Shown piece by piece: positions 28,200-46,832 of a stretch of DNA of 64,000 nucleotides. The DNA comes from Saccharothrix deserti. GTDB taxonomy: Bacteria; Actinomycetota; Actinomycetes; Mycobacteriales; Pseudonocardiaceae. The position numbers and the translations under genes were made by a program. The stretch is from NCBI RefSeq assembly GCF_009769385.1, contig NZ_VKAB01000044.1:1-64000 (forward strand). The letters are read 5' to 3'. Below the pieces are notes generated by a model. It ran no database searches. It was not told where the DNA came from and was given only the letters and a program-made list of their open reading frames with translations. The stretch's first letter is position 1; every line of letters begins with the position of its first letter.

Positions 28200-28724
28200 T
28201 CAGGGCGTCGGCCGGCAGGTCGTCACGACCGGCCAGCCGAAGCCGAGCGACACGACCTCCCCGTCCCAGTCCCCCGGTCGAGGTCCGATCGCCAGGTCGC
28301 CGCGCCCCGCACGCATCGCCGCCTCCAGGTCCCGGCGGTGGGAGTAGTCGTGCAGCCGCAACACCGTGCCGGGGTACTGATCGTGCCAGCGCACGATGCC
28401 CGCGGGCAGGGCACCCGAAGCCACCGACCGGATGGTCAGGACGTGCAACTCCCCCTCGCGCCCGCTCACCAGGTCGGCCACCGATCTGCGCGCTTCGTCG
28501 GCCGCCGCGATCACCGCCTGCGCCCTGGGCAGGAAGACCCGACCGGCGGCGGTGAGCGCGACACCGAGGCGTCCGCGTTCGAGGAGTTCGGTGCCCAGTT
28601 CCCGCTCCAGCGCCCTGATCTGCTGCGACAACGAGGGCTGCGCCACCAGCAGCTGATCCGCCGCCGCGCTGAAGGAGCCGTACTCGCAGATCGCGACGAA
28701 GTACTCGAGCTGACGGAGACGCAT
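28200..28724 (-). CDS. LysR-family regulator, C-terminally truncated
   Basis: 174 residues instead of the usual 290-310. The N-terminal winged helix is complete: MRLRQLEYFVAICEYGSFSAAADQLLVAQPSLSQQIRALERELGTELLERGRLGVALTAAG in successive segments, followed by the linker helix. The effector domain begins (ELHVLTIRSVASGALPAGIV) and runs to GDWDGEVVSLGFGWPVV, then stops, so the second subdomain and half of the first are missing. Its stop lies 27 bp from the DUF3500 stop, where a deletion could have joined the two. It might still bind DNA but should not sense a ligand normally. Confidence 0.8.
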   Translation of the reverse strand: MRLRQLEYFVAICEYGSFSAAADQLLVAQPSLSQQIRALERELGTELLERGRLGVALTAAGRVFLPRAQAVIAAADEARRSVADLVSGREGELHVLTIRSVASGALPAGIVRWHDQYPGTVLRLHDYSHRRDLEAAMRAGRGDLAIGPRPGDWDGEVVSLGFGWPVVTTCRPTP

Positions 28725-28816
28725 GCTCGCCTGACCTTTCCTCGATCAATAACGGTGCCCGTGCCCGGCCGGCCGGCGACCGCCTTCCGGTTCCGTTGTG
28801 CCGATCACGTCATTCC

Positions 28817-28831
28817 GGATACACTGTAGCC
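28817..28831. promoter_or_regulatory. Operator GGATACA-C-TGTAGCC
   Basis: Third copy of the dispersed palindrome, one mismatch from the perfect site at 16885. It lies about 110 bp before the FAD monooxygenase start and about 90 bp before the LysR start on the other strand. Confidence 0.7.
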
Positions 28832-28887
28832 ATAATTACGGTTTCAACACCGGTCCGGGAGGCGGCACTGCTCCCCCCTCGACGTTC

Positions 28888-28930
28888 CACTCCTGAGGCG
28901 TCCCACTCCTGAGGCGTCCCACTCCTGAGG
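28888..28930 (+). repeat. Tandem 16-bp repeat that triplicates a ribosome-binding site
   Basis: Unit CACTCCTGAGGCGTCC occurs at 28888-28903 and 28904-28919, with a partial third copy at 28920-28930. Each copy carries CTGAGG; the GAGG of the last copy is nine bases from the monooxygenase ATG at 28940 and is the functional site. Confidence 0.85.
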
Positions 28931-28939
28931 TGACAAACA

Positions 28940-30448
28940 ATGGACAAGCACATCGACGTGCTCGTGGTAGGCGCCGGGCCGACCGGGCTGACACTGGCCT
29001 GCGACCTGCGCCGCCGCGGGATCAGCTTCCGCGTCGTCAACGCCGCGGACCACGGCTTCGAGGGCTCCCGGGCCAAGGGTGTCCAGCCGAGAACCCTCGA
29101 AGTGCTCGACGACCTCGGCGTCCTTCCCGAACTCCGGCCCCGCGGGTCGAGGTACCCGTTACTCGGCCTCCACATCGGCCCGTTCACCCTGCCCTGGGTG
29201 ATGTACAAGCACCACAAGCCGACCGAGAACGTGCCCCACCCCGACACCATGCTCGTCCCCCAGTACGAGACCGACGCCTCCCTCCGACGACGCCTCGCGG
29301 AACTCGGCGCAACGGTGGAGGACGGGACCCGGCTGGTCTCCTTCGAGGAGGATTCCGACGGGATCATCGCGACGCTCGAAGAGCCGGGCGGCACCGAGCT
29401 GGTCCGCACCCGCTTCCTCGTGGGCACCGACGGCGGCTCCAGCGCCGTGCGTCGCGCCGCCGGGATCGACTTCGTCGGCTCGACCGACGAGAACGACCGG
29501 GCGATCGTCGCCGACGTCGACCTCAGCGGCCTGTCCCGCAACCGGTGGCACGTCTGGCCCCGCAAAGCGGGCCGTTTCATGGCGCTGTGCCCCCTCCCCG
29601 ACGGCGACAAGTTCCAGCTCATGCTCAAGCTGCGCCCCGACGAGGAGGCCGACCTGGGCCAGGAGGCGGTCGACCGCCTCGTCCAGGAGGTCGTGGGCCG
29701 GCCCGGGCTCCAGGTGCACGAGATCCACTGGGCCTCGGTCTGGAACCCGAACACCCGCTTGGCCGAGCGCTACCGGTCCGGGAACGTGTTCCTCGCCGGC
29801 GACGCCGCCCACGTCCACCCGCCCGCCGGCGCGCAGGGCCTGAACACCGGCGTGCAGGACGCGTACAACCTCGGCTGGAAGCTGGCCCAGGTCCTGGCCG
29901 GGGCACCGGACGCCCTGCTCGACAGCTACGAGGCCGAGCGGCAGCCGATCGCCGCCCGGGTGCTCGGCCTCTCCAGCGAGTTGTACGCCGGTGTGAGCAA
30001 CCGACACCTGACGGCGGTCAAGCGCGGTGACGAGGAACGGCAGCTCGCGCTCACCTACCGCGGCGGCCCACTCGCCCCCGACAGCGACCCTCAGCAGAAG
30101 GGCGTCCGCGCCGGCGACCGCGCGCCCGACGCCCGGTACACCGACACCCGCGGTCGGTCCGGCCGGCTCTTCGACGTGTTCCGCAGACCGCACTTCACGC
30201 TGCTCGCCGTCAGGCAGCCCGCGATCGACGCCCTCGACCTGGTCAACTGGCCGGATCGGGGCGCGCGCCTGGAGACCGTGGCGATCCCGGCCGGCGCCGC
30301 TCCCGGGCTCAAGCGCGCCTACGGAATCCAAGGGTCCGCGCAGATCCTGGTGCGGCCCGACGGCTATGTCGCCCACGTCGCCCAGGACAACTGGGCGGAA
30401 TCCCTGCACGAGCACTCGCGACTCATGCTGCCGCGGTTCGCCGGCTAG
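28940..30448 (+). CDS. FAD-dependent aromatic monooxygenase (PheA/TfdB-like)
   Basis: 502 residues. FAD-binding GAGPTGLTLACDLRRRGI at residues 11-28, the RAKGVQPRTLEVLDDLGV segment typical of phenol-hydroxylase-like members, and the second FAD motif FLAGDAAHVHPPAGAQGLNTGVQDAYNLGWKL. A conserved GTDGGSSAVRRAAGI (the DG motif) is present. A C-terminal thioredoxin-like domain of about 130 residues (AGDRAPDARYT to SAQILVRPDGYVAHV) is also typical. The reaction should be NAD(P)H-dependent hydroxylation of an aromatic or heteroaromatic ring. An operator shared with the amidohydrolase and oxidoreductase loci lies upstream, and a truncated alpha/beta hydrolase gene follows. Confidence 0.9.
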   Translation: MDKHIDVLVVGAGPTGLTLACDLRRRGISFRVVNAADHGFEGSRAKGVQPRTLEVLDDLGVLPELRPRGSRYPLLGLHIGPFTLPWVMYKHHKPTENVPHPDTMLVPQYETDASLRRRLAELGATVEDGTRLVSFEEDSDGIIATLEEPGGTELVRTRFLVGTDGGSSAVRRAAGIDFVGSTDENDRAIVADVDLSGLSRNRWHVWPRKAGRFMALCPLPDGDKFQLMLKLRPDEEADLGQEAVDRLVQEVVGRPGLQVHEIHWASVWNPNTRLAERYRSGNVFLAGDAAHVHPPAGAQGLNTGVQDAYNLGWKLAQVLAGAPDALLDSYEAERQPIAARVLGLSSELYAGVSNRHLTAVKRGDEERQLALTYRGGPLAPDSDPQQKGVRAGDRAPDARYTDTRGRSGRLFDVFRRPHFTLLAVRQPAIDALDLVNWPDRGARLETVAIPAGAAPGLKRAYGIQGSAQILVRPDGYVAHVAQDNWAESLHEHSRLMLPRFAG

Positions 30449-31371: not shown

Positions 31372-33003
31372 ATGTCTGAAAGCTGCGTCGTCGTTTCCGG
31401 CCTGTCCTTTTCCTGGCCCGATGACACCCCGGTGTTCGACGGGCTGTCCTTCACCGTCCCGACCGGCCGCACCGGTCTCGTCGCGCCCAACGGGGCCGGG
31501 AAGACGACCCTGCTCAAGCTGATCGCCGGCGAGCTGCGGCCGTCGGCGGGAAGCGTCACGGTCGACGGTGTGCTCGGCTACCTCCCGCAGGACCTGCCGC
31601 TGACCGGTGAGCCGACCGTCGCCGAAGTCCTCGGGATCGCCGCAATCCTGCGTGCCTTGGCGGCCGTCGAGTCCGGCGATGTCGACGAAGAGCACTTCAC
31701 CACGATCGGGAACGACTGGGACATCGAAGAACGCACGCGCGCCCAACTGGACCGGCTGGGTCTCGGCGACATCGGCCTCGACCGTCCCCTGCACACGCTC
31801 AGCGGTGGCCAGGTCGTCTCCCTGGGCTTGGCGGCCCAGCTGCTCAAACGGCCGGACGTGCTGTTGCTGGACGAGCCGACCAACAACCTGGATCTCGACG
31901 CACGCCACAGGCTCTACGACGTGCTCGACGACTGGCACGGCTGCCTGCTCGTGGTCAGCCACGACCGCGCCCTGCTCGACCGCGTGGACCGCATCGCCGA
32001 GATCGAGAGCGGCGAAGTCCGCTACCACGGCGGGAACTTCACCGAGTACGAGCAGGCGGTCGAGGCCGCGCGGGAGGTCGCCGAGAAGAACGTCCGCAAC
32101 GTCGAGCAGGAGCTCAAGCGCGAGAAACGGGAGATGCAGCAGGCTCGCGAACGGGCCGCGCGCAGGGCGAGCAACGCCGCGCGCAACCTCGGCAACGCGG
32201 GGCTGCCCAGGATTTTCGCCGGGACCATGAAGCGCAACGCGCAGGAGTCGGCCGGCAAGGCGAGCGGGACGCACGCGGCGCGGGTCAGCGCGGCGAAGGC
32301 CAAGCTGGACGAGGCCGAGCGGGCGCTGCGGGACGAGCAGAGGATCAACCTGGAGCTGCCGCAGACCGCGGTCCCCGCCGGACGGACGCTCTTCCTGGGC
32401 GAACGCCTGCTGGCGGGCTACGGCGAGCGGGAACTGTTCGCGGACGAGGGCGCGGACCTGGTGATCCGCGGCCCCGAGCGGATCGCGCTCACCGGCTCCA
32501 ACGGCGTCGGCAAGTCCACCCTGCTGCGGATCGTCCACGGCGACCTGGAACCCCGCGGCGGCGACGTCAAGCGGGCCGACGGCCGGATCGCCTACCTGTC
32601 GCAGCGCCTGGACCTGCTGGACGGCGCCCTCACGGTCGCCGAGAACCTGGCGGCATTCGCACCGGCGATGCCGCCGGCGCAGCGGATGAACCTGCTCGCA
32701 CGCTTCCTGTTCCGCGGATCCCGGGCGCACCTCCCGGTCGGCGTCCTGTCCGGTGGGGAACGGCTGCGCGCCACGCTGGCCTGCGTCCTGTTCGCCGAAC
32801 CGGCACCACAACTGCTGCTGCTGGACGAACCCACGAACAACCTCGACCTGGTCAGCGCAGGGCAACTGGAACGCGCGCTCAACGCTTACCAGGGCGCGTT
32901 CGTCGTCGTCAGCCACGACGAACGGTTCCTCACCGAGATCGGGATCGACCGCCGGCTCCGGCTCGAAGACGGCCGACTGCTGGAGACGGCCGCAGCCGGC
33001 TGA
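31372..33003 (+). CDS. ABC-F family ATPase (antibiotic-resistance or translation-factor type)
   Basis: 543 residues from ATG 31372, which has GAGG nine bases upstream. Two ABC domains without membrane parts: Walker [10 protein letters not shown] at about 38-46, signature LSGGQ, Walker [14 protein letters not shown]; then a basic linker ([20 protein letters not shown]) that would reach the ribosomal centre; then the second domain with [15 protein letters not shown] and [15 protein letters not shown] proteins act on the ribosomal E site and many give resistance to macrolides, lincosamides or related drugs. The frame is open upstream to GTG 31297; that 25-codon extension has a TTA codon at 31306 and could be a leader or an alternative N-terminus. 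Confidence 0.9.
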
Positions 33004-33016
33004 GCGGGGGACCGAC

Positions 33017-34265
33017 ATGGCTGAAGCAGCTCTGCTCGCACACGACCTCGTGCGCGTCCTGGGTGGTCGGCGCGTCCTCGACGGGGTCTCGCTCACCGCG
33101 TCTCCGGGCCGTCGGATCGGCCTGATCGGCGAGAACGGCGCCGGGAAGTCCACACTGCTGCGGTTGCTCGCGGGCGTGGACCAACCCGACCGCGGCAGCG
33201 TCGAGCGGCCACCGGACCTCGGCTACCTGCACCAGGAGATGTCGTTCGACCCGCTGGCCACCGTCGCCGACGTGCTCGACGACGCGCTGGCCGGCGCACG
33301 CGATGACCTGGCCGAACTGGACCGGCTCGCCGGCCTGCTCGCCGACTTCCCGGATGACGCGGAACTCCTCACCGAGTACGCCGAGCGCCTCGAACGCGCG
33401 CAGCACCACGAGGCCTGGGACGCCGACCGGCGGGCGGAGGCCGTCCTCACCGGACTCGGCCGCCCTGCGCGAATCGCTCGGCGTGACGACACACCAGGTC
33501 GCACCGAACCGTCCCCAGCGCGACAACGAGAAGATGGGCTACGGGCACCGGGCCGGCAGGGTGCAGAACCAGATCGCGCGCCGTGTGCGCCACACCACGC
33601 GCCGGATCGAGGAGCTGGAACGCCGGCAGGTCCCCGCGCCCCCGAGGCCACTGCGCTTCCTCCCGGACGCCCTCGCGGACCAGGCGCCCGACGAGATCCT
33701 GGTGTCCCTGCGCGACGTCCACGTGCCCGGGCGGCTCGCGGTCGATCGCCTCGACGTGCCCGCCACGGGACGGTTGCTCGTCACCGGGCCCAACGGCGCG
33801 GGCAAGTCCACCCTGCTGCTCGTGCTGGCGGGCCGGCTCGAACCGGGCGGCGTACGACGGCGCTCCGGGCTCCGAGTCGGCCTGCTGAGCCAGGACACCC
33901 GATTCGACCGGCCCGGACGCACCGCGTGGGAGACGTACGAATCGGTGCTGGGCGCGGAGCGAGCGGAGTCCGTTCCGCTGCTTTCACTGGGGCTGCTGCA
34001 CGAGTGGGATGTGGACAAGCCCGTCGGGGACCTGTCGGTGGGTCAGCGGCGACGGCTCGCGCTGGCGTTGGTCGTGGCGGATCCTCCTGAGCTGTTGCTG
34101 CTGGACGAGCCGACCAACCACCTGTCCCCCGCGCTGTGCGACGAACTGGAGGACGCACTGGGCCCCGGGCCGGGCGCGATCGTGCTCGCCAGTCATGACC
34201 GCCGGCTGCGCTCGCGGTGGCGGGGCACCGAGGTCCGCGTCGATCCGATGTCGGCGATCCGGTGA
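33017..34265 (+). pseudogene. Second ABC-F gene with central deletion
   Basis: The 5' part from ATG 33017 encodes an ABC-F first domain ([21 protein letters not shown], Walker [10 protein letters not shown], then [21 protein letters not shown]) up to AEAVLTGLG at about 33459. The frame then changes, and the sequence resumes at [21 protein letters not shown], which in intact relatives lies in the linker. The signature, Walker B and switch His of domain 1, probably close to 200 residues, are missing. The second domain is intact: [36 protein letters not shown] and VLASHDRRL, ending at 34265. The product cannot be a functional two-domain ABC-F. It directly follows the intact ABC-F gene (13-bp gap), so the pair was probably an operon. 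Confidence 0.8.
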
Positions 34266-34278
34266 CGTACACCCATGA

Positions 34279-34321
34279 CGTCGTCCGACGGTCGCCGCGG
34301 CTTTCCCGGGGTTCTTAACGT
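34279..34321 (+). promoter_or_regulatory. Conserved bipartite promoter upstream of ohr
   Basis: CGTCGTCCGAC at 34279-34289, 25 bases, then TTAACGT at 34315-34321, 43 bp before the ohr ATG. The same elements with exactly the same 25-base spacing precede the hydrolase at 35897 and the aldo/keto reductase at 39005. TAACGT is taken as the -10; no good -35 is present, so activation by a bound regulator is likely. Confidence 0.75.
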
Positions 34322-34363
34322 GGTGCCGAATCCCACGACATCCCGAGATCGAGAAGGAAATCC

Positions 34364-34795
34364 ATGCCTGAAACCACTTACACCGCGGTAGCCACCTCCA
34401 CGGCGGAGGGCCGCAACGGGGGGCGGGCGACCTCTGACGACGGCGTGCTCGACCTCGCCCTCGCCGTCCCGAAGGCATTCGGTGGCAACGGTGACGGCAC
34501 GAACCCGGAGCAGCTGTTCGCCGCGGGCTGGGCGTCCTGCTTCGTCGGCGCGGTGCGCCGCGTCGCGAGCGCGAAGAAGGTGCCCTTGAACGACCTCGCC
34601 GTGGTCGCGGAGATCACCCTGCACCACGACACCGACGCCGGCGAGTTCAAGCTCAGCGCCGTGCTGCACTTGGAGGCGTCCGGTATCGACCAGGCGACCG
34701 CCGACGAACTGGTCGACGGCGCGCACCAGGTGTGCCCGTACTCGAAGGCGACCCGAGGCAACATCGAGGTCACCTTGGACGCCACCGTCGCCTGA
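34364..34795 (+). CDS. ohr: Organic hydroperoxide resistance protein (OsmC/Ohr family)
   Basis: 143 residues, the normal length. Ohr features are present: TYTAVATSTAEGRNGG, LDLALAVPKAFGGNGDGTNPEQLFAAGWASCF with the first active-site Cys, and VDGAHQVCPYSKATRGN with the second Cys and the VCPYS motif of Ohr rather than OsmC. The enzyme reduces organic peroxides using dithiol cofactors, in the cytoplasm. No OhrR gene is next to it. Instead its promoter matches two others around the LuxR-family ATPase regulator. It converges with the hydrolase gene on a shared terminator. Confidence 0.93.
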   Translation: MPETTYTAVATSTAEGRNGGRATSDDGVLDLALAVPKAFGGNGDGTNPEQLFAAGWASCFVGAVRRVASAKKVPLNDLAVVAEITLHHDTDAGEFKLSAVLHLEASGIDQATADELVDGAHQVCPYSKATRGNIEVTLDATVA

Positions 34796-34810
34796 CACCC
34801 TCCGGATGGT

Positions 34811-34842
34811 CTGAGCCCGCCGCACGCGAGCGGCGGGCTCAG
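34811..34842. terminator. Bidirectional hairpin terminator between convergent genes
   Basis: CTGAGCCCGCCGC (34811-34823), loop ACGCGA, GCGGCGGGCTCAG (34830-34842): a perfect 13-bp stem between the stops of ohr (plus) and the hydrolase (minus). Confidence 0.85.
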
Positions 34843-34853
34843 GCTCGTCCACT

Positions 34854-35897
34854 TCAGAGTCGGTCGGCGTCCACGATCGCCTGGGCGAAGGGCCGCGGTG
34901 CTTCCTGCGGGACGTTGTGGCCGATGCCCGCGAACACCCGGTGGTCGTACTTCCCGGTGAACTTGGCGCGATAGGACGTCCCGCTCGCCGCTTCGCCGTC
35001 GAAGTCGCTGCCGATCGTGATCGCCGGCACGGAGATGGCCGGTGCGGTGGCGAGTACCTGTTCGTATTTCTCGTACTGCGTCTCCCCCGGCGCCAAGCCC
35101 AGGCGCCAACGGTAGTTGTGGATGACGATGTCGACGTGATCGGGGTTGTCGAAGGACGCCGCGGTCCGCGCGTACGTGGCGTCGTCGAAGTTCCACCGCG
35201 GCGACGCGGTCCGCCAGATCAACCTGTTGAAGTCGTGCCGGTTCCGGTGGTAGCCGAGAACCCCGCGTTCGGTCGCGAAGTAGTACTGGTACCACCAGCC
35301 CAGCTCGGCCGCCGGGGCCAACGGCTGCCGGTTCGCCTCGATGTTCGTGACCAGGTACCCGCTCACCGGGACAATCGCCTTGCAGCGTTCCGGCCAGAGC
35401 GCGGCGATGACCGCGACGGTCCGCGCGCCCCAGTCGAACCCGCCGAGGACCGCCTCGTCGATCCCGAGCGCGTCCATGAGCGCGATGATGTCCTGCGCTA
35501 CCGCCGACTGCTGTCCGTTGCGGACCGTCTGCGCGGACAGGAACGTGGTCGGGCCGTACCCGCGCAGGAACGGGACGATCACCCGGTACCCGTCGGCGGC
35601 CAGCAGAGGCCCGACGTCGGCGTAGCTGTTCGGGTCGTAGGGCCAGCCGTGCAGCAGCAGCACCGGCCGGCCGTTGCTGGGACCGAATTCGGCGTACGCC
35701 GTGTTCAGCACGCCGGCGTCGATCTGTTTGACGGGGCCGAGTGAAGTGTTCTCGCCCGACCCGGCCCGGAGATCCGCCTCTTCGGTCGGCACGGCGACCG
35801 GAGCGTTCCCGGCGGGGGCGTTCGACGAGCAGGCGGTCAGCGATGTCGCCGCCACGCCCGCCGCCAACGCCCGCGTGAATCGTCTCCTGCTGATCAT
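34854..35897 (-). CDS. Exported epoxide-hydrolase-like alpha/beta hydrolase
   Basis: 347 residues. The N-terminus ISRRRFTRALAAGVAATSLTAC has both a twin-arginine motif (SRRRF) and a lipobox (LTAC), so a folded, lipid-anchored exported enzyme is predicted. The alpha/beta fold: LLLHGWPYDPNSYADVGPLL with the H-G-x-P oxyanion motif, and GGFDWGARTVAVIAALWP with Asp in the nucleophile position, as in epoxide hydrolases and haloalkane dehalogenases rather than serine esterases. A cap domain rich in Trp/Tyr follows (LGWWYQYYFATERG, then RNRHDFNRLIW), and the catalytic His is in GIGHNVPQEAP. The substrate is unknown. Its promoter shares the bipartite motif with ohr and the aldo/keto reductase. Confidence 0.85.
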   Translation of the reverse strand: MISRRRFTRALAAGVAATSLTACSSNAPAGNAPVAVPTEEADLRAGSGENTSLGPVKQIDAGVLNTAYAEFGPSNGRPVLLLHGWPYDPNSYADVGPLLAADGYRVIVPFLRGYGPTTFLSAQTVRNGQQSAVAQDIIALMDALGIDEAVLGGFDWGARTVAVIAALWPERCKAIVPVSGYLVTNIEANRQPLAPAAELGWWYQYYFATERGVLGYHRNRHDFNRLIWRTASPRWNFDDATYARTAASFDNPDHVDIVIHNYRWRLGLAPGETQYEKYEQVLATAPAISVPAITIGSDFDGEAASGTSYRAKFTGKYDHRVFAGIGHNVPQEAPRPFAQAIVDADRL

Positions 35898-35933
35898 CTG
35901 AACTCCTGTGCGGAAGTCTCGGCAACGATGCCG

Positions 35934-35976
35934 ACGTTAGGCAGCCGCTGGAGGCTTCCGCGCCTGTCGGATGACG
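35934..35976 (-). promoter_or_regulatory. Conserved bipartite promoter upstream of the exported hydrolase
   Basis: On the minus strand CGTCATCCGAC (35976 to 35966), 25 bases, CTAACGT (35940 to 35934), then 36 bp to the ATG at 35897. The spacing is identical to the two plus-strand copies. The bases after the first box (AGGCGCG) also match the aldo/keto reductase promoter. Confidence 0.75.
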
Positions 35977-36022
35977 CTGCCGGTGTAGGTCATCGGCGGT
36001 GCAGGTCTCCGTCGGCTGACCG

Positions 36023-38749
36023 CTATCGGGCGGGCTTGTCGCCGAGCGCCTTGAGCATCGCCGCGAGCTCGGCACGGGAGCTCACGCCCAGTTTGGGGAA
36101 GATCCGGTGCAGGTGGGTGCCGACGGTGCGGTGGGAGAGGTAGAGCCGCTGCCCGATCTCCCGGTTCGTCAGGCCCTCGGCGGCCAGCTGCGCGATGCCG
36201 AGCTCGTGCGGGGTCAGTCGGTCCCGCGCGTCCGGTCCCCGGTTCGGGCTCGACTCCCCCGCGGTGCGCAGTTCCCGCCGGGCCCGCTCGGCCCACGCGG
36301 TCATGCCGAGCGCGTCGAACGCCTCCCTCGCCGTGCGCAGGTGGCTCCGGGATTCCACCACCCGGCGCTGTCGCCTCAGCCATTCGCCGAACGCCAGGTG
36401 GACGCGCCCGCGTTCCGCGGGCCACGCGGTCAGGTCGGCCCGCAGCGCGTTCGTGAACAGCTCCTCCGCGTCCTCGTGCGGGGCGAGCACGGCGCGCGCG
36501 TAGCGCAATCCGATGTGCAGCGCGGGCGACGGCGTCGATGCGGCCGCCCTTTCCAGGTCGCGCAGGATGTCCCGCATCGCGCCGGTCTGCCCTGCACGCA
36601 CGGCCGCATCGGTGAGTTCCGCGACGAAGTACGCGCGCAGGGCCAGTTGGTAGGCGGGGTCGGTCGGGTCGAGCAACCGGCTCAGGTCGGCGAACGCATC
36701 GTCGAAGCGGCCCTCGCTCAACGCGGCGAGCCCGCGCGCGAGCTGGACGGTGGCCAGGACGGGACGGGCGCCCGCGGCGAGCCCGACCCGCTCTGCCTCG
36801 TCGGCCAGTGCCCTGGCCTGCTTGTGGTCGCCCCGCAAGGCGGCGATCTCGGCCCGGACCGCCGTGGCCAGCCCGTACATGAACGGCTGCGCGGTCTCCT
36901 GTGCGAACTCGGCTGCTTCCGCCGCGACCGGCGCCGCCGCGGCCACGTCACCGAGGCGGACCCGGCTCCACGCCTGGACGGTCAGCGCACGGGTCAGCAA
37001 CCCGAGCCTGCCCTGGACACGAAGGCCGGGCGCCGCTGCCGCGGCGAAGTGGGCGGCCAGGTCGAACGCCCCGACCTGCAACGCCGCGCTGCCCAGGTAG
37101 CGGTCGACTTCCGGGTCGGCTCCGGTCGTGCCGGCGAGTTCGCGCAGCCGGTCGAGCACGACGCCACCCCGCTCGAACGGCGCGACGTACGCGGCGACCG
37201 CGATCATGCGGGGGTCGTCGTCCGGGACGGGAAGCCGGTCCGCCACACCCAGCAGCGAACGGCGGGTCTCGGGGCCGGGTTCCGACCAGAAGCAGCGCAT
37301 CGCCGCACCCCACAGGATCCGCATCGCCGGTTCGACCTGCCCGTCGGCGGCGACCGACTCGGCCAGCCCGGCCAGCTCCGACGTGCGTGCGGTGTCCTCG
37401 CGCACCCCGTCTTCGAACCCGCTGAGCAACCAGCTCGCGGTGGCGCGACGGCGGGGCGAGAGCTCACCGGCCTGTGCTTGCCGCACCAGGCGTTCGGCCG
37501 TCTCGCGGCGACCGGATTCGACCGCCAACTCGGCGGCCCGCAGCAACCGGTCCGCCCGCCGTCCCGTCGCACCGCTCAGCCGAGCGGCTTGTTCCAGCGC
37601 CGCGATGGCGGCGGCGACGCCGCCCCGGTGCCGCGCCCGGTCCGCGGCGCGTTCCAGTTCCGCCGCCACCTGCTCGTCGGTGCCCGCCGTCGCGGCGGCT
37701 CGGTGCCAGGCCCGCCGGTCCGGCTGCTCGCGCAGCGTCGCGGCGAGTGCCAGGTGGGCCCGGCGTCGCTCGGCGAGCGTCGACGCCGCCGGGATGGCCG
37801 ACCGCACCAGCGGGTGCCGGAACGTCACCGTGCCGGGATCGGGCTCGATCAGCCCGGCGTCGACGGCCGGCGTCAGGACCTCCGGTTCGGCCGGGACTCC
37901 CAGCACCGAGCCCGTGGCCGCGAGCGCCTCGGCGACCGAGCCGCCCTCGTTGAGCGCCGCGACCAGCAGCGCGGCACGGGTCCGCGCGGGCAGGACCGCG
38001 ACCCGGGCGGTGAACGTGCGTTCGAGGCGTTCGGTCAGCGGCAGGACCGGGTCGAGCGCGTCGAGGCCCGTCACGGCCGATGGCAGCTCGGTCAGCGCCA
38101 GCGGGTTTCCCGCCGCCTCCGCGAGCACCCGTGCCCTGACCGTCGGGGTGAGGCCGGGGGCGACCGAGTCGAGCAGTTCCGCCGCGACCTCGTCGGACAG
38201 GCGTTCGAGGTTCATCGAGGACAGGCCGGCGTCGCGCAACGGCGACCGCGCGCCGTCCGCGAGGGTCGCGATCAGGACGATCGGTTCGGACTCGATCCGC
38301 CTGGCCACGAAGGCGAGGACGTCCGCGCTCGCCCGGTCCAGCCACTGCACGTCTTCCGCGACGATCAGCAACGGCCTGCCCTCGGACCGCTCGGCCAGCA
38401 GCGACAACGCGGCGAGCCCGACCAGGTAGGCGCTGGGTTCCGCCGCGTCCTCCAGCCCCAGCGCGGTCCGCAGGGCCGCACGTTGGGGGCGCGGCAAGGA
38501 GTCCACACCCGCCCGGACCGGGAACAACAGCTGGTGCAGCCCGGAGTGGGCCAGGTTCTGCTCGGCCTCGACGCCGGTCGTCCTCAGCACGTGCAGCCCC
38601 GCGACCGACGCCGCCGCGACCGCTTCCGCCACCAGCGCGGACTTCCCGATGCCGGGCTCGCCCCGGATGAGGACGCCGCTGCCGTTCCCCGGTCCGTCCA
38701 GGAGCACGCCCAGGTCCTTCAGCTCGGCTTCCCGTCCGTACAGCGGCAT
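36023..38749 (-). CDS. Large ATP-binding LuxR-family regulator (LAL type)
   Basis: 908 residues. The N-terminus MPLYGREAELKDLGVLLDGP leads into an AAA/STAND ATPase with Walker A GEPGIGKSALVAEAV near residue 30 and a Walker B-like RPLLIVAEDVQWLD near 125. A long helical TPR-like middle follows (many LLRAAELAVESGRRETAERLV-like repeats). The end is a LuxR DNA-binding domain, RDRLTPHELGIAQLAAEGLTNREIGQRLYLSHRTVGTHLHRIF, then KLGVSSRAELAAML. LAL proteins are usually transcription activators responding to an inducer. Its gene lies between three genes whose promoters share an unusual bipartite motif, so it is the natural candidate activator. Its own upstream region shows no copy on the minus strand. 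Confidence 0.9.
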   Translation of the reverse strand: MPLYGREAELKDLGVLLDGPGNGSGVLIRGEPGIGKSALVAEAVAAASVAGLHVLRTTGVEAEQNLAHSGLHQLLFPVRAGVDSLPRPQRAALRTALGLEDAAEPSAYLVGLAALSLLAERSEGRPLLIVAEDVQWLDRASADVLAFVARRIESEPIVLIATLADGARSPLRDAGLSSMNLERLSDEVAAELLDSVAPGLTPTVRARVLAEAAGNPLALTELPSAVTGLDALDPVLPLTERLERTFTARVAVLPARTRAALLVAALNEGGSVAEALAATGSVLGVPAEPEVLTPAVDAGLIEPDPGTVTFRHPLVRSAIPAASTLAERRRAHLALAATLREQPDRRAWHRAAATAGTDEQVAAELERAADRARHRGGVAAAIAALEQAARLSGATGRRADRLLRAAELAVESGRRETAERLVRQAQAGELSPRRRATASWLLSGFEDGVREDTARTSELAGLAESVAADGQVEPAMRILWGAAMRCFWSEPGPETRRSLLGVADRLPVPDDDPRMIAVAAYVAPFERGGVVLDRLRELAGTTGADPEVDRYLGSAALQVGAFDLAAHFAAAAAPGLRVQGRLGLLTRALTVQAWSRVRLGDVAAAAPVAAEAAEFAQETAQPFMYGLATAVRAEIAALRGDHKQARALADEAERVGLAAGARPVLATVQLARGLAALSEGRFDDAFADLSRLLDPTDPAYQLALRAYFVAELTDAAVRAGQTGAMRDILRDLERAAASTPSPALHIGLRYARAVLAPHEDAEELFTNALRADLTAWPAERGRVHLAFGEWLRRQRRVVESRSHLRTAREAFDALGMTAWAERARRELRTAGESSPNRGPDARDRLTPHELGIAQLAAEGLTNREIGQRLYLSHRTVGTHLHRIFPKLGVSSRAELAAMLKALGDKPAR

Positions 38750-38955
38750 CGTGCGGCACTCCTACCCTGCGGCCATCCCACGGACCGTGCACGGGTCTTC
38801 ACCGCGACGATACCCAAACCCTGTCGGGGTCGGACGTTCCACCAGCTCAGGACGGTTGCCGTGCCGAAGGTGCCGGGTACGTCCACATCGGACTCGAACC
38901 GGACTCCGCCCCGGCAGCCGCAGCACCGCCGACAGGTGACGACTTACCCGGATGA

Positions 38956-38998
38956 CGTCATCCGACAGGCGCGAAGGCTCCCACCGGGCACTTAGCGT
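38956..38998 (+). promoter_or_regulatory. Conserved bipartite promoter upstream of the aldo/keto reductase
   Basis: CGTCATCCGAC at 38956-38966, 25 bases, TTAGCGT at 38992-38998; the ATG at 39005 follows so closely that the message is probably leaderless. The first box is part of a perfect palindrome GGATGACGTCATCC (38950-38963). Confidence 0.78.
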
Positions 38999-39004
38999 GG
39001 CCTC

Positions 39005-40114
<1,110 letters not shown>

Positions 40115-40736: not shown

Positions 40737-41453
40737 TCACAGCCAGCGCGGCAGTGGGGGACGTCCCCCCGATTCGGCGACACCGCCGGCGAGCCTGCCG
40801 GTGAGCCAGCCGGCGATATCGGCAGCCGTTGCCGCGCCGGTCGTCCCGGCACCCGCGGGACCCAGGTGCCACCTTCGGGCGCGGTCCGTAGGCGCCAAGT
40901 CGACCGATGGGCAGCCCTCCTTGGCCGTGAGCGCGGCGGCCACGTCGTCGATGAGCAGGTCCACGACGCCGGCGGGCAGGTCGTCGGCGGTCACGCCGGC
41001 ATCGAGGTCGACCGCGTGGAGCCACACCTCCCGGATGCGCATCCAGGGCACCTCGGCGGCGGGGATAGCGCGGCCCAGCGCGCTGCGGACTTCGGCGTTC
41101 CACTGTTCGCCGGTCAGTTCGCCGAGCGCCTTGTCGAGCGTCACGGCAGTGCCGGCCACCTCCGAGCGCAGAACGTCCGCGGGCAGCCCGGCGGACTGTT
41201 CGATTTCGAGGGCACGCTGGTCGCGACCGGCGTACATGGGCGACTCCACACCGGTACGGGCCCACGTGGCGAGCCTGGTCAACGCCTCGGCGTTGCGGGC
41301 GAGGTGCCCGACGACGTGCGCGCGGGTCCAGCCGGGCAACCGGCTGGGTGCGCGCAGGTCGTCGTCGGTGAGCTCGTCGACGACGGCCAGCAGTGTGCCG
41401 GTGCCTTCGCGCATCCAGGGCAGGGTGGCCTCGAAGTCGTGTCGGCCCGTCAT
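40737..41453 (-). CDS. Mycothiol-dependent maleylpyruvate isomerase family protein
   Basis: 238 residues; the ATG at 41453 overlaps the upstream stop as ATGA. DinB-like four-helix start: LPWMREGTGTLLAVVDELTDDDLRAPSRLPGWTRAHVVGHLARNAEALTRL, with the GW-x-x-x-H-V-x-x-H metal-binding His pattern and a further MRIREVWLHAVDLDAG His/Asp motif. These are the hallmarks of the MDMPI family. The isomerase converts maleylpyruvate to fumarylpyruvate with mycothiol. Its position at the end of an operon that makes and consumes these compounds makes that specific role very likely. Confidence 0.88.
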   Translation of the reverse strand: MTGRHDFEATLPWMREGTGTLLAVVDELTDDDLRAPSRLPGWTRAHVVGHLARNAEALTRLATWARTGVESPMYAGRDQRALEIEQSAGLPADVLRSEVAGTAVTLDKALGELTGEQWNAEVRSALGRAIPAAEVPWMRIREVWLHAVDLDAGVTADDLPAGVVDLLIDDVAAALTAKEGCPSVDLAPTDRARRWHLGPAGAGTTGAATAADIAGWLTGRLAGGVAESGGRPPLPRWL

Positions 41454-43138
41454 GCGGGTGCCCCGGCGTCGAGGCGTTCGGCGATGTCGGCGCGCAGGGC
41501 CTTCTTGTCGATCTTGCCGACCTTGGTGGCGGCGAGTTCGTCGACCAGGACCAGGCGCTCGGGGAGTTTGAACCGGGCGATGCCGATCCGCTCCATCGAA
41601 CCGCGGATCTCGTCGAGCGTGACGGTGGCCCCGGGCCGGGGCACGACGTAGAGGCAGACTCGCTCTCCCAGGTCCGGGTCGGGCATCGCGACGGCGGCCA
41701 CCTGGGCGACGCCGGGGAGTTGGTAGACCAGGTTCTCGACCTCTTCGGCCGAGATCTTCTCTCCGCCGCGGTTGATCATGTCCTTGTCCCGGCCCTCGAC
41801 GATCAGGTTGCCGTCCGCGGTCCGGCGGCAGATGTCGCCGGAGCGGTACCAGCCGTCGGCGGTGAACGCCCGGGCGTTCTGCTCGGCTGCCTTGTAGTAC
41901 CCGCGGGGCGTGTAGGGGCCGCGGGTGAGCAGGGAGCCGAGTTCCCCGTCGGGCACGTCGTGGTCCGACTCGTCGACGAGTCGGACCTCGTCGTCGGGGC
42001 ACATCGGCCTGCCCTGGGTGGTGCACACGACTTCTTCGGGGTCGTCGAGGCGGGTGAAGTTCAGCAGCCCCTCGGCCATCCCGAAGACCTGCTGGAGGTC
42101 GGCGCCGAGGACCGGCTTGATCCGGCGGGCGAGTTCGTCGGCGAGCCGCGCCCCGCCGACCTGCAGCACGCGCAGGGTCTCCAGGTCACCCGCGCCGTGC
42201 TCGACCGCGTGGTCGAGCCACCGCCCGGCCACGGCGGGGACCACGGCGGTGTGCGTGACGCCCTCGGCGGCGATGGTCGCGAACGCCCGTACCGGCTCGG
42301 GCGAGGGCAGCATGACGACCCGTCCACCGGCGAGCAGCGTGCCCAGGATGCCCGGGCAGGCGAGCGGGAAGTTGTGCCCGGCGGGCAGGCTGACCAGGTA
42401 GGCCGCGTCAGGACCGACGCCGGCGACTTCGGCGCTGCGGCGGGCGTTGTACGCGTAGTCGTCGTGGGTGCGGGCGATCAACTTGGGCAAGCCGGTCGTG
42501 CCGCCGGAGAGCAGGAAGACCGCGACGTCCCGGCTGCCGACAGCGGTGGCGTCGAGCCGGGCGTGGTCGGCGGCCGGGTCGTCGCCCGGTCCGCAGAGCG
42601 CCCGCAGGTCGGTGCTGCCGGGTGCGATCTCGGAGCCCGCGACGAGGACGTGCCAGGGGCCGCCGGTCACGGCCCGGACGTCGTCGGCGAGTTCGTGGGC
42701 CAGGTGCTGGTGGTCGAAGTCGCGCATCCGGTCCGGGACGGCGATCGCCGTGGCCTCGGAGTGCCGTGCCAGGTAGGCGAGTTCGACGCGCCGGTGCGCC
42801 GGAAGTGCCATCACCGGGACGACCCCGGCGCGCAGGCACGCGTGGGTGAGCACGACGAACTCCCACCCGTTGCCGAGTTGGACCACGATCCGGTCACCGG
42901 GACGCAGGCCGAGGTCGAGCAGGCGGGTGGCCGCGGAGTCGGCGCGGTCGGCCAGTTCGGCGTGCGTCAGCCGAACCCCGGCGACCGGGTCGACCAGGGC
43001 GGGGACGTCGGGGTGGCGGTCGGCGACGTCGCGGAGCAGGGTGCCGAGCGGCACCCCGGCCCAATAGCCCTTGGCCACGTACGTCCGTACCTCGGCATCG
43101 GGCCAGGGCACGGTGTTGTCACTGATGGGGGTGGGCAT
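41450..43138 (-). CDS. Salicylyl-AMP ligase-like aryl acid activating enzyme (EntE family)
   Basis: 562 residues; ATG 43138 is preceded by GGGAGG. Aryl-AMP ligase features: YWAGVPLGTLLRDVADRHPD, the P-loop LLSGGTTGLPKLIARTHDDYAYN, LPAGHNFPLACPGILGTLLAGGRV (the H-N-F segment of DhbE/EntE-type enzymes), QVFGMAEGLLNFTRLDDP, RPMCPDDEVRLVDE and RDKDMINRGGEKISAEEVE with a terminal ATKVGKIDKKALR carrying the catalytic Lys. Enzymes of this type activate salicylate or 2,3-dihydroxybenzoate. No carrier protein or siderophore gene is near. The gentisate genes around it point to salicylate degradation through salicylyl-CoA, as reported for the sdg genes of a Streptomyces strain. Confidence 0.88.
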   Translation of the reverse strand: MPTPISDNTVPWPDAEVRTYVAKGYWAGVPLGTLLRDVADRHPDVPALVDPVAGVRLTHAELADRADSAATRLLDLGLRPGDRIVVQLGNGWEFVVLTHACLRAGVVPVMALPAHRRVELAYLARHSEATAIAVPDRMRDFDHQHLAHELADDVRAVTGGPWHVLVAGSEIAPGSTDLRALCGPGDDPAADHARLDATAVGSRDVAVFLLSGGTTGLPKLIARTHDDYAYNARRSAEVAGVGPDAAYLVSLPAGHNFPLACPGILGTLLAGGRVVMLPSPEPVRAFATIAAEGVTHTAVVPAVAGRWLDHAVEHGAGDLETLRVLQVGGARLADELARRIKPVLGADLQQVFGMAEGLLNFTRLDDPEEVVCTTQGRPMCPDDEVRLVDESDHDVPDGELGSLLTRGPYTPRGYYKAAEQNARAFTADGWYRSGDICRRTADGNLIVEGRDKDMINRGGEKISAEEVENLVYQLPGVAQVAAVAMPDPDLGERVCLYVVPRPGATVTLDEIRGSMERIGIARFKLPERLVLVDELAATKVGKIDKKALRADIAERLDAGAPA

Positions 43139-45234
43139 CGGTGGCCTCCCTGGGAACGTGGCGGGGTGAGGACGACGGCGTCCAGCGCGACCAGGCCGCG
43201 TGAGGTGAGCCGCAACGGGTTCACCTCGATCTCGTCGAGGGCGGGATTGGCGACGAGCAGGTCGCCGAGCGCCGCGACCACCCGTCCGAGTTCGGTGGTG
43301 TCGAGGACCGGGCCGCCGCGCCACCCGTCCAGCAGGATGCGCCCGCCGAGTTCCGCGGGCATCTCCGCCGCCTCTCCCGGGCTGAGCGGTGCGAGGCGGA
43401 TCGCGACGTCGGCGAGCGCCTCGGCCGTGGTCCCACCGAGGCCGAGCAGCAGGATCGGGCCGAAGACCGGATCACGGCGGGCTCCGAGCACGAGGTCGAC
43501 ACCGGGGTCGGCCATCCTCTCCACCAGGTAGCGGTCGGCCCCGATGGCGTCCAGGCGGTCCAGGGCGGCGTCGAGGTCTTCGACCGTGCCGACGCCCAGG
43601 TGGACGCCGCCCACCTCGGTCTTGTGCAGGATCGAGGCGTCCAGGACCTTCACCGCGACCGGGCCTCCGAGGTCGGTGAGCGCGGCGTGGGCGTCGGCCC
43701 TGCTGTCGCAGGCACGGCGCTCGGTGGTGCGGACACCCAGGTCGTCGAGCAGTCGTTTGGCCTGGTCTTCGTCGTAGGAACCGCCGAACACGGCGGGAAC
43801 GGGCCGACTGACGTGGGTCGCGGCCTCCCGACTCCGGGACCGGGCGTCCGCGATGAGCGCGCCGATGGCGGCGGCCACTCCCCTGGGCTCGGTCGCGACG
43901 GCGATGCCGGCGTCGAGCAGGGCACGGCGGTCACGCGCGACGTCCTCGCCGCTGCCGCCGAGCCCGAGAACCATGGGCACGTCGGGGTCGTGAGCCTCAC
44001 GAGCCGCCCCGACCACGTCGACGGCGTCGGGTTCGTGCAGCGCGTACGCGGCGATCACGTCGACCTCGGGGTCGTCGGCGACGGTGCGGAACACCCGGGC
44101 GAGCTCGGGCCCCGGACGGCCGGTGTCGACCGGGTTGCGCTGGTAGGTCATCGGCGGGAGCAGGGTGCCGAGCCGGTCCTGTGTGGCCGGGGTCAGTTCG
44201 GGGACGCGGACGCGGCGTCCGCGCAGGTCGTCCAGCAGGAGCAGGCCCGGGCCCGCTTGGGCGGTCACCACGCCGACCCCGGCGTCGCGGTGGGGCGGGA
44301 CACGGGTCACGGCCAGCGCCCCCACCGCGTCGACGAGTTCGCGTTCGTCATCGACCAGCACAGCCCCGGCCTGGGCCAGCGCGGCGCGGGTGGTGCGCCA
44401 CGAGGTGGCCAGCGCACCCGTGTGGGAGGCGGCGAAGGCTCCGATGTCGTGCCGGCCGACGACCAGCGCGACGACGGGGCGGCGTGCGGTGAGGCGCCTC
44501 ACCGCGGCGACGAGCCGGGGGCCGTTCGCGACGGACTCGACGTGCAGCGCGACAGCTCCTGTCCCGGCGTCGTCGGCGAGGTGGTCGAGCACGTCGGGAG
44601 CGGTCACGTCGACGGCGTTGCCGAGACCCACCGCGAGGCTGATGCCGTGTCCGGCTTCGGTGAGCAGGAACGCCAGCGCGTGGTTGACGCCACCGCTGGC
44701 CGCGACGACCGCGACCTTGCCGGGCCGGACGGCGGCCACGCCCGGCACGAAGCTGGCGGTGACGCCCGCGTGCGGCGCGAGGAACCCGCTGGTGTTGGGA
44801 CCGAGCAGCCGTATCCCGGTCTCGGCCACGACGGCCGCCAGCTCTTCTTGCAGGGCGATGCCGGGTCCGCCGGTCTCGGCGAACCCGCCGCCGCAGATCA
44901 CGGCGGCACGGGCTCCTGCGCGGGCGGCCTCGGTGAGCACCCCCGGGCAGACGGCCGCCGGGACGCAGATCATCGCGAGGTCCACGGGGCCGTGTTGAGC
45001 CGCAGCCTGCACGGAGGCGTGCATCGTGTCGTCCCGCCCGTTGACCAGCGCCAGGTTCCCGCCGCGCGCGGCGAAGCCGCTCAACGACCGGGCCAGGGCC
45101 GCACCCAGCTTGCGCGGGTCCCGGGAGGCGCCGACGACGGCGATCCCCTTCGGGGCGAACAACGCGTCGAGGTTCCGTCCGGCGTCCACAACGGTGTCGG
45201 CGTCGAGGCCGGTCCGGGGTGCGGTGGCGGTCAC
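42967..45234 (-). CDS. Acyl-CoA synthetase, NDP-forming (acetate-CoA ligase family)
   Basis: About 755 residues from GTG 45234, which overlaps the monooxygenase stop as GTGA. Order: CoA-binding domain (LFAPKGIAVVGASRDPRKLG, then GARAAVICGGGFAETG, LLGPNTSGFLAP); succinyl-CoA-ligase-like domain (VAVVAASGGVNHALAFLLTEAGHG, GRHDIGAFAASHTGALATS with the phospho-His region); and an ATP-grasp domain (GGSYDEDQAKRLLDDLGV, VAVKVLDASILHKTEVGGV, LDEIEVNPLRLT). It forms acyl-CoA with ATP or the reverse. There is no stop before the next gene: the frame runs 172 bases into it, and the last 57 residues have no family features. Here it may convert salicylyl-AMP or another aryl acid to the CoA ester, or recycle CoA; this is inference. 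Confidence 0.8.
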   Translation of the reverse strand: MTATAPRTGLDADTVVDAGRNLDALFAPKGIAVVGASRDPRKLGAALARSLSGFAARGGNLALVNGRDDTMHASVQAAAQHGPVDLAMICVPAAVCPGVLTEAARAGARAAVICGGGFAETGGPGIALQEELAAVVAETGIRLLGPNTSGFLAPHAGVTASFVPGVAAVRPGKVAVVAASGGVNHALAFLLTEAGHGISLAVGLGNAVDVTAPDVLDHLADDAGTGAVALHVESVANGPRLVAAVRRLTARRPVVALVVGRHDIGAFAASHTGALATSWRTTRAALAQAGAVLVDDERELVDAVGALAVTRVPPHRDAGVGVVTAQAGPGLLLLDDLRGRRVRVPELTPATQDRLGTLLPPMTYQRNPVDTGRPGPELARVFRTVADDPEVDVIAAYALHEPDAVDVVGAAREAHDPDVPMVLGLGGSGEDVARDRRALLDAGIAVATEPRGVAAAIGALIADARSRSREAATHVSRPVPAVFGGSYDEDQAKRLLDDLGVRTTERRACDSRADAHAALTDLGGPVAVKVLDASILHKTEVGGVHLGVGTVEDLDAALDRLDAIGADRYLVERMADPGVDLVLGARRDPVFGPILLLGLGGTTAEALADVAIRLAPLSPGEAAEMPAELGGRILLDGWRGGPVLDTTELGRVVAALGDLLVANPALDEIEVNPLRLTSRGLVALDAVVLTPPRSQGGHRCPPPSVTTPCPGPMPRYGRTWPRAIGPGCRSAPCSATSPTATPTSPPWSTRSPGFG

Positions 45235-46832
45235 GCGGCACCCGCCACGAGGTCGGCGCGACCGGACAGCACGGTGGTCAACGCGCGGTCGCGGTCGGAT
45301 CCGGGTTCCACGAGCAGTGCGGGCAACCGGTCGTGCAAACGGGCCTGCTCGCAGACCAACACGCGGCACAGCGGCGTGCCGCCGTGCACCGCCACCAGGG
45401 CTGGTGCGGTGTCACCGAGTCCGGCGAGGCGGGTCAGCCGCGCGAAGACCTCCGGCAGGTCGGCCTCGTGATCGGGGGCGACGACGAGCGCGCCCCACGG
45501 GCCGCGCCGCGGCTGGTCGGCGAGCGGCAGCGGTTCCGAATCGTCCGCGCCGCCGAGGACGGCCGCGGGCACCCCGTTCGCGTCGGTGGACAACGACACC
45601 GACCTCCCGGTGGTGGACCACCCGGCACGTTCGAAGGGTGTCTCCAGCGGTTCCGCGCCGTGGGCGTCCACCCAGGCGCGGTGGCCGGCGGCCACGAACT
45701 CCGGGTCCCGCTTGGCCAGCCGGGCGTCGGTGATCGAGCGGGACATGAAGTGGTAGGCGAACTGCCACGGCTCCAACTCGTCGTGGTACCGCCCGAAGTT
45801 CTCCCACCACGCCAGGCTCGGCCTCGCGGAGTCCTGGATCTTCCGCACCGAGGGCTGCGCCGCCGCCTCGTAGGCGGACAGGGCCGCCGGGAGGTCCGAC
45901 GGCGATCCGACGACCGCACGGGCCAGCTCCACCGCGTCCTCCATGGCCATCTTCGTGCCGGAGCCGACCGAGAAGTGCGCGGTGTGCACGGCGTCGCCGA
46001 GGAACACCACGGGTGCGGCGCCTCCCCGCAGGGTGTGCCAGCGGCGGGTGCGGCGGGTGCGGAAGTTGCCCCAGCGGGAGTTGTTGACCAGCAGCCGCTT
46101 CCCGTCGATCTGGTCGGCGAACAGCTTCTCCAGGTAGTCCTTGGAGACGATGTCGCTCGCTCCCGGCGGCTGGGCGACGTCGAACTCGTCGAGTCCGGCT
46201 CGGCGCCACGACGCCTCGTCGGTCTCCACGATGAACGTCGACACCTCGTCGGAGATGGGGTAGCCGTGCACGGCGAACACCCCGTCCGGGCCGCGCTCGT
46301 GCACGAACGTCAGCCCGTCGAACAGGTAGTCGGTGCCGAACCAGATGAACTTGGCCGTGGCGGTCTCGACCTCCGCCCCGAGATCGGCTTCGCGCTCCAC
46401 CCGGTCGCGGATCTTCGAGCCGGTGCCGTCGGCCGCCACGACGAGGTCGTAGCCCGCCAAGTCGTCGAGGGCGACCTCGGTGGCGAACCGCAGCCGTGCT
46501 CCGACGTCACGGGCACGGGTTTGCATCAGCGCCAGCAGCGTGCGCCGCGCGACGGCCGCCATCCCGTTGCCGCCGCACCTGATCCGTTCGCCCTTGAGCC
46601 GCACCTCGATGTCGTCCCAGTGCCTGCCGTGCCCGGTCAGCGCCTCGCGCAGCACCGGGTCGGCTTCGTGGATACCGGCCAGTGTCCGGTCGGAGAAGAC
46701 GACGCCGAAGCCGAAGGTGTCGTCCGGCCGGTTGCGCTCGAACACGGTGACCTCGATCGACGGGTCGGCCCGGCGGATCAGGGTGGCGAAGAACAGCCCC
46801 CCGGGACCGCCTCCCACGACAGCGATGCGCAT
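45231..46832 (-). CDS. Salicylyl-CoA 5-hydroxylase-like FAD monooxygenase
   Basis: 533 residues. FAD site MRIAVVGGGPGGLFFATLIRR, the flavin-binding FGFGVVFSDRTLAGI, VVAADGTGSKIRDRV and VVFLGDAVHTAHFSVGSGTKMAMEDAVELA. The run FSVGSGTKMAMEDA and the C-terminal WWENFGRYHDELEPWQFAYHFMSRSITDARL are characteristic of the anthraniloyl-CoA/salicylyl-CoA hydroxylase group, where a CoA-thioester substrate is bound. The old-yellow-enzyme half found in bifunctional members is absent; a shorter C-terminal domain of about 120 residues takes its place. The expected reaction is 5-hydroxylation of salicylyl-CoA to gentisyl-CoA with NADH or NADPH. It lies three bases after the hydrolase gene. Confidence 0.88.
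   Translation of the reverse strand: MRIAVVGGGPGGLFFATLIRRADPSIEVTVFERNRPDDTFGFGVVFSDRTLAGIHEADPVLREALTGHGRHWDDIEVRLKGERIRCGGNGMAAVARRTLLALMQTRARDVGARLRFATEVALDDLAGYDLVVAADGTGSKIRDRVEREADLGAEVETATAKFIWFGTDYLFDGLTFVHERGPDGVFAVHGYPISDEVSTFIVETDEASWRRAGLDEFDVAQPPGASDIVSKDYLEKLFADQIDGKRLLVNNSRWGNFRTRRTRRWHTLRGGAAPVVFLGDAVHTAHFSVGSGTKMAMEDAVELARAVVGSPSDLPAALSAYEAAAQPSVRKIQDSARPSLAWWENFGRYHDELEPWQFAYHFMSRSITDARLAKRDPEFVAAGHRAWVDAHGAEPLETPFERAGWSTTGRSVSLSTDANGVPAAVLGGADDSEPLPLADQPRRGPWGALVVAPDHEADLPEVFARLTRLAGLGDTAPALVAVHGGTPLCRVLVCEQARLHDRLPALLVEPGSDRDRALTTVLSGRADLVAGAA

Follow-up and report, generated by a model that had tools for sequence, protein, structure and literature searches.

The stretch of DNA considered here, called the window, comprises positions 1 to 64,000 of contig NZ_VKAB01000044.1 from Saccharothrix deserti (assembly GCF_009769385.1). 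It contains a gene for a regulator of the LAL family surrounded by ohr, an epoxide-hydrolase-like gene, and an aldo/keto reductase gene. These three enzyme genes share a promoter that is very probably a site turned on by the LAL. We hold with good confidence that the best explanation of the sequence data is a MalT-like activator of the STAND class, which would use a compound operator to switch ohr, the hydrolase, and the reductase together. The LAL family itself is known and, judging from the genomes compared, it is the operator that is newly defined. Comparative genomics yielded an operator of 32 bp, a promoter whose geometry is fixed, the genes it precedes in dozens of species, and a difference in the regulator's recognition helix that matches the type of operator. 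In this arrangement an activator of the STAND type would take the place of OhrR in controlling Ohr and would join it with exported hydrolases.

Three Matching Promoters and Their Compound Operator

The first-pass annotation of this DNA had placed the pattern CGTCRTCCGAC-N25-YTARCGT ahead of all three genes with an identical 25-base gap, and exact matching recovers it at 34279-34321 (+), 35934-35976 (-), and 38956-38998 (+). The scan of the window allowed 22 to 28 bases between the boxes, and 100 shuffled windows gave a mean of 0.00 matches. In the whole 10.8-Mb genome, with 20 to 30 bases allowed, these three are the sole exact copies and the reversed motif used as control has none; when up to three mismatches are tolerated at N25, the closest further sites differ at 2 positions. 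Chance or a repeat artefact is ruled out as the source of the triplet by the shuffles, the genome-wide uniqueness, and the matches in the family, where the control was empty. The hydrolase and reductase promoters both have the AGGCGCG that was said to follow box 1, and all three promoters have a further box 15 to 9 bases before box 1 (Table 1).

The full extent of the operator comes from an alignment of 80 nonredundant sites, drawn from 60 family loci picked from core-pattern matches, from the window, and from 70 named loci retrieved solely with the LAL protein as query. Conservation reaches 16 bp upstream of box 1, with (T)GACGTAC at -16 to -9 from it, and the conserved operator reads (T)GACGTAC-N9-GTCRNNYGAC-NSNCGC over 32 bp, followed by a TANNNT -10 element. 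Its core, GTCRNNYGAC, is a palindrome. The CGTCRTCCGAC box to which binding of the regulator had first been assigned is real and conserved, but it is only the palindromic core of this compound operator, and the upstream box had been missed. A 17-bp dyad, GTCRTC-N5-GRYGCC, was also tried; it fits the sister sites discussed below, but for upstream-box sites GTCRNNYGAC with its flanks is the better description.

The geometry of the promoter is nearly invariant. The 70 named loci hold 100 distinct operators in 50 loci, and TANNNT follows at an offset of 20 in 94 operators and of 19 in 3, with no other offset between 3 and 49. When the transcription start is set 7 nt past the -10 element, the palindrome is centred near -43 and the CGC falls at the -35 position. 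No -35 consensus was seen in the alignment of the 80 sites, as the first-pass annotation had noted for the three promoters. Spacing so rigid would suit an activator in contact with the polymerase. Distinct sites that combine the upstream box with a -10 element (at most one mismatch) number 171; a plausible gene lies within 220 nt of 163 of them, and in 62 of these 163 targets the start codon (39 ATG, 23 GTG) lies 6-8 nt past the -10 element, a count in which orthologues repeat and for which there is no shuffle control. Other targets have it at 2-5 nt (4), at 9-20 nt (14), or at 1 nt (13), the last being probably misplaced starts. Clustering at 6-8 nt is what leaderless transcripts would be expected to show and supports, together with the locked distance, the assignment of the second box as a TANNNT -10 element. 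In the window, the reductase gene looks leaderless by this measure, and the ohr transcript is predicted to start near 34328.

It might be supposed that the two boxes are the -35 and -10 elements of an alternative, extracytoplasmic function (ECF) sigma factor, since there are two of them at a fixed spacing and the -10 element ends in CGT. This is very improbable: 25-26 bp separate the boxes, which leaves box 1 too far upstream for a -35 element, conservation extends 16 bp further upstream still, and the occurrence of the sites tracks the LAL (sigma genes were not searched for). TANNNT also fits the primary sigma factor.

Operator and Regulator Occur Together Across Genomes

A survey of 297 family genomes was made first with the core pattern and later with the full operator, allowing at most one mismatch. 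The full operator was found in 64 of these genomes and the reversed control in none; among 396 genomes of the phylum it was found in 2, the window's own and one from the same order. All 64 operator genomes have a LAL match at E <= 1e-70, and in 61 of them, all except G015, G183, and G277, a LAL is at least 53% identical to that of the window, in some cases over part of the protein. The comparison set, searched at E <= 1e-90, consisted of 80 pattern-less genomes picked from 233, mostly of the same genera; 45 have some LAL match, whereas only 2 (G126 and G276) have one of at least 53% identity, and in G126 the operator is present with a spacing 1 bp less. Position was followed among the 150 sites listed, of which 97 lie within 5 kb of a LAL at least 46% identical and 50 start -12 to +35 bp from the last aligned base of the LAL. 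The other 53 are farther than 5 kb or on contigs without a listed LAL, and the link between operator and LAL is therefore more than physical neighbourhood.

The first-pass annotation had proposed scanning related genomes upstream of orthologues, and such a scan bears the motif out: 50 of the 70 loci fetched by protein contain the full operator, and 59 contain the operator or the core promoter. Genes preceded by the operator include those for the hydrolase, Ohr, and the reductase, among others, in Amycolatopsis, Saccharothrix, Saccharopolyspora, Nonomuraea, and further genera; the core promoter is found in Nocardia as well. The best Ohr match in the 80 pattern-less genomes (E <= 1e-30) is 65% identical, so that they offer no copy of the same ohr away from the LAL for comparison.

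Several points weigh against reading this association as regulation by the LAL. The unequal E thresholds and the choice of the 80 comparison genomes are among them, and all of the association counts are inflated by shared ancestry and linkage. G276 has a 55% identical LAL with no operator within the 10 kb read, and a 50% identical LAL also occurs without an operator. By the patterns used, 11 of the 70 LAL loci (8 of them Nocardia; some loci incomplete) have neither operator nor core promoter, with a weaker core site seen in three of them (L142, L145, and L172). Finally, among 20 control motifs made by column shuffling, 19 gave 0-3 sites but one gave 20, spread over 18 loci.

The Recognition Helix Tracks the Operator Type

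The LAL of the window has SHRTVGTHL as the recognition helix of its LuxR helix-turn-helix (HTH) domain, and helices of this form go with the upstream box. In the fetched loci 171 sites were scored, 130 with the upstream box and 41 without. For the former, the nearest helix within 9 kb is SHRTVxTHL at 115 sites, SPRTVG[YH]HL at none, another at 1, and none of the searched form at 14; for the latter, the counts are 10, 13, 0, and 18, and a Fisher value for this table is descriptive only, its rows being related and the motif itself having served to retrieve most family loci. The 10 SHRTVxTHL sites without the upstream box tell against a strict correspondence; all are from Nocardia and have another upstream half. 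The core alone does not identify the LAL of the window, because a different LAL type accompanies the sister promoter that lacks the upstream box. As a signature of the regulator the core motif was rejected: in its looser form it is found in 74 of 297 genomes, but the reversed control matches too, and sister sites are among those picked up.

A promoter that is real and bound by some other regulator, such as a NarL-type response regulator or a SARP, with the LAL merely a linked neighbour, would account for several of these observations. Two sister sites without the upstream box (L053 and L055) lie near NarL-type HTH genes, no helix of the LS[HP]RT type stands within 9 kb of the 18 sites noted above, and a SARP gene is itself a frequent target. 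We consider this unlikely, given that a LAL of at least 53% identity is present in 61 of 64 operator genomes, including genomes with sites on other contigs, against 2 of 80 pattern-less ones, and that the operator type tracks the LAL helix. The LAL had also been described as the only regulator among the genes of the locus, and no other was found between 34 and 40 kb in the window.

Sister promoters are also present in the genome of the window. Four sites without the upstream box lie on other contigs (L198:8034, L199:8018, L200:8045, and L201:9468) and are followed by an ABM-domain gene, a serine-hydroxymethyltransferase-like gene, a DUF4440/SnoaL-like gene, and an FMN reductase gene, respectively. 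The FMN reductase site is weak and lies near a second LAL that is 40% identical and has an SPRT helix. Elsewhere (L100, L102, and L103, near 7946-8141), two adjacent divergent sister promoters point to a questin-oxidase-like gene and an MFS transporter beside an SPRT-type LAL. Sister promoters also stand ahead of NmrA-like and other small genes in L087-L091 and L096-L098, with no LS[HP]RT helix found nearby.

Decayed Promoters and the Sign of Regulation

The TA of the -10 element is lost in 5 of the 150 listed sites: two in G172 and one each in G015, G183, and G171. In G172 (L209) the LAL and the hydrolase each align in two frames and the LAL appears frameshifted, while G015 (L210) and G183 (L211) have no listed LAL match of at least 53%. 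These three genomes are possible natural loss cases in which regulator and -10 element seem to decay together. Loss of the -10 element alongside LAL decay, though the cases are few, would suit an activator whose loss leaves the promoter useless. Three facts count against this use of the decayed sites: G171 has kept its LAL yet has one site with a lost -10 element; G277 has three listed sites with an intact -10 element while its best LAL is 46% identical with a TGA in the alignment; and the frameshifts in G172 could be assembly errors.

These sites also bear on whether the LAL could be a repressor acting across the -35 region. The operator does overlap the -35 position, and one LAL of Streptomyces, SCO6993, acts negatively (excerpts of PMC9628970). 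Repression is nonetheless quite improbable here, as no -35 consensus is seen, a -10 distance fixed at 19-20 would be needless for a repressor, and loss of a repressor should leave the promoter working, whereas -10 elements are lost where the LAL is broken or missing, in three genomes (few cases, with G277 as a counter-example).

For the activator that we favour, a plausible course of events can be laid out. The sensor domain of the LAL would bind an inducer, which we guess from the enzymes to be an oxidised lipid or a phenolic, and the LAL would then assemble; inducer- and ATP-dependent oligomerisation is a trait of the STAND/MalT-type family. The LuxR domains of the assembled protein would bind directly to GACGTAC-N9-GTCRNNYGAC-NSNCGC, an operator that would span about -64 to -31 from the predicted start and thus cover the place of the missing -35 element. 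In the manner of a class II activator, the LAL would recruit RNA polymerase carrying the primary sigma factor to the bare TANNNT -10 element. Co-induction of ohr, the epoxide-hydrolase-like enzyme, and the aldo/keto reductase would be the outcome in the window, with clearance of peroxides, epoxides, and carbonyls as the presumed role.

Genes Under the Operator

Family names for the targets rest on Pfam searches with one to three members per family. The 163 targets comprise 53 epoxide-hydrolase-like alpha/beta hydrolases, 32 tannase/feruloyl esterases, 26 Ohr proteins, 22 SARP-type (BTAD) regulators, 17 DUF6130 proteins, 4 members of a second epoxide-hydrolase family with an EHN domain, 2 LuxR proteins, 2 members of the creatininase family, an aldo/keto reductase, a cupin, a methyltransferase, and two genes without an identification. 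The reductase comes after DUF6130 in L060 and L064, probably in one operon. Several N-termini (hydrolase, tannase, DUF6130) resemble signal peptides by eye. The families are unrelated to one another and the target sets differ between species, as if a single regulator had been combined with varying hydrolytic and redox enzymes. Joint control of three detoxification genes, as first suggested, is supported; the set is larger than three and includes esterases and the SARP, and the word detoxification comes from annotation only.

The SARP gene often has the same operator (examples are L074:4821-7322 and L120:9316-10881), which suggests a putative cascade from LAL to SARP. Autoregulation of the LAL was looked for in 57 full-length named loci within 300 bp upstream, and no operator points at the LAL, all 17 found there being divergent. 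A more tentative and rather doubtful generalisation would see a large LAL superfamily in the Actinomycetota with one operator code, with a shared GTCRNNYGAC and the class set by the SHRTVxTHL or SPRTVG[YH]HL helix and the flanking box. The upstream-box class would then be a response to extracellular threat, in which a STAND sensor of oxidised lipid or phenolic would act on largely leaderless genes for exported epoxide hydrolases, tannase-like esterases, and lipoproteins as well as cytosolic Ohr and aldo/keto reductase, and would pass the signal on to the SARP.

The LAL Protein and Related Systems

LALs are numerous in actinomycetes. The protein of the window has the features of the family, being about 900 residues long with an N-terminal NTPase (AAA_16 at residues 2-160) and a C-terminal LuxR/GerE HTH (PF00196 at 844-898, E=2.5e-14); GEPGIGKSAL and LLIVAEDVQWLD can be read from the sequence as Walker A and B motifs. 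An AlphaFold model made with 18 sequences (pLDDT 79.9, pTM 0.60) has a STAND/MalT-type layout of NTPase, helical-repeat superhelix, and C-terminal HTH, being mostly helical over 313-830 with the HTH at 841-903, and its secondary structure at about 238-312 suggests a possible winged helix after the NTPase. Its fold matches score low, the best being 6mfv (a STAND protein with TPR; TM 0.32/0.41) and the fourth a chain of the maltose-system structure 8bob (TM 0.27/0.53). The domain search gave no Trans_reg_C or BTAD match, and so no SARP domain, in this LAL.

The LAL prototype, MalT of E. coli, has the same order of N-terminal NTPase, helical region, and C-terminal LuxR HTH. Its box is quoted as GGA[TG]GA in the excerpts of PMC9628970. 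Counted on either strand, this hexamer occurs within 43 of the 166 operators, where the GTCATCC variant supplies it, against 1 and 7 of 166 in two flanking intervals; the 43 are the hydrolase and reductase operators of the window and 41 relatives, and the hexamer lies on one strand of the palindrome. It may reflect a kinship with MalT recognition but is not the conserved unit. The differences are that 123 of the 166 operators, that of ohr included, lack the hexamer, that the conserved unit is a palindrome plus a separate 7-bp box, and that other genes are controlled.

The Streptomyces LALs SCO0877, SCO7173, and SCO6993 are likewise actinobacterial, but the genes they are described as affecting are those for phosphate and antibiotics (PMC3282765 and PMC9628970, both in excerpt). 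S. coelicolor has 14 LALs according to the former, and SCO6993 dimerises and binds short palindromes with no predictable consensus according to the latter; neither excerpt offers a usable LAL consensus site. The PimR-type SARP-LALs are also large ATP-binding activators that use compound operators, but they bind heptameric direct repeats and lack a LuxR HTH (excerpts of PMC5930380), whereas the LAL of the window has the HTH and no SARP domain match. In the OhrR-Ohr system the Ohr enzyme is also under transcriptional control, with the difference that OhrR is a peroxide-sensing repressor of the MarR family (excerpts of PMC6034001) and no MarR gene was found beside the ohr of the window, whose neighbours are an ABC-F-like gene, the hydrolase, the LAL, and the reductase (a distant ohrR was not searched for). 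PMC10269677 concerns a TetR regulator.

The first-pass annotation knew of no described regulon of this make-up, and none appeared among the matches listed in a literature search on LAL and Ohr topics, most subscription journals being outside its coverage. The matches listed for GTCATCCGAC were, by title, about animals, cells, or viruses, or else a yeast kinase, and those listed for TGACGTAC with actinomycete included no title on such a promoter.

The Window Locus

The identities first given to the four genes are confirmed by profile and structure matches (Table 1). The best PDB match of the hydrolase, 5bov, is a putative epoxide hydrolase (E=8e-119), and the enzyme is probably exported, its N-terminus resembling a Tat/lipoprotein signal by eye. 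The Ohr-family peroxiredoxin has two cysteines, in SCF and VCP, as read from its sequence.

Table 1. Promoter elements and genes of the window locus
Feature	Position	Strand	Basis or detail
ohr operator	34264..34295	+	GACGTAC 34264-34270; palindromic core GTCGTCCGAC 34280-34289; GGTCGC 34290-34295; alignment with 80 sites
ohr -10 element TAACGT	34316..34321	+	locked distance in relatives
Hydrolase operator	35960..35991	-	GACCTAC 35991-35985; core GTCATCCGAC 35975-35966; AGGCGC; one mismatch to pattern
Hydrolase -10 element TAACGT	35934..35939	-	pattern match; locked distance in relatives
Reductase operator	38941..38972	+	GACTTAC 38941-38947; core GTCATCCGAC 38957-38966; AGGCGC
Reductase -10 element TAGCGT	38993..38998	+	ATG at 39005, 6 nt on
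ohr, organic hydroperoxide reductase family, 143 aa	34364..34795	+	TIGR03561 159.3 bits (cutoff 88.85); OsmC
Alpha/beta hydrolase, epoxide-hydrolase-like, 347 aa	34854..35897	-	PF00561
LAL (STAND-like) regulator, 908 aa	36023..38749	-	AAA_16, GerE
Aldo/keto reductase, 369 aa	39005..40114	+	PF00248 E=5.1e-67; best PDB matches 7utf, 4xk2

Just upstream of ohr lies a second ABC-F-like ATPase gene (32753-34265, +) split over two frames. As its ABC_tran matches fall in two open reading frames, 32753-34090 and 33303-34265, the gene is taken to be frameshifted, by decay or by sequencing error. Farther out, 28200-30448 and 41450-45369 hold genes for a LysR regulator, an aromatic-ring hydroxylase, an AMP-binding ligase, and an ATP-grasp/CoA-ligase-like protein, and the genes flanking the locus may form a phenolic catabolic neighbourhood.

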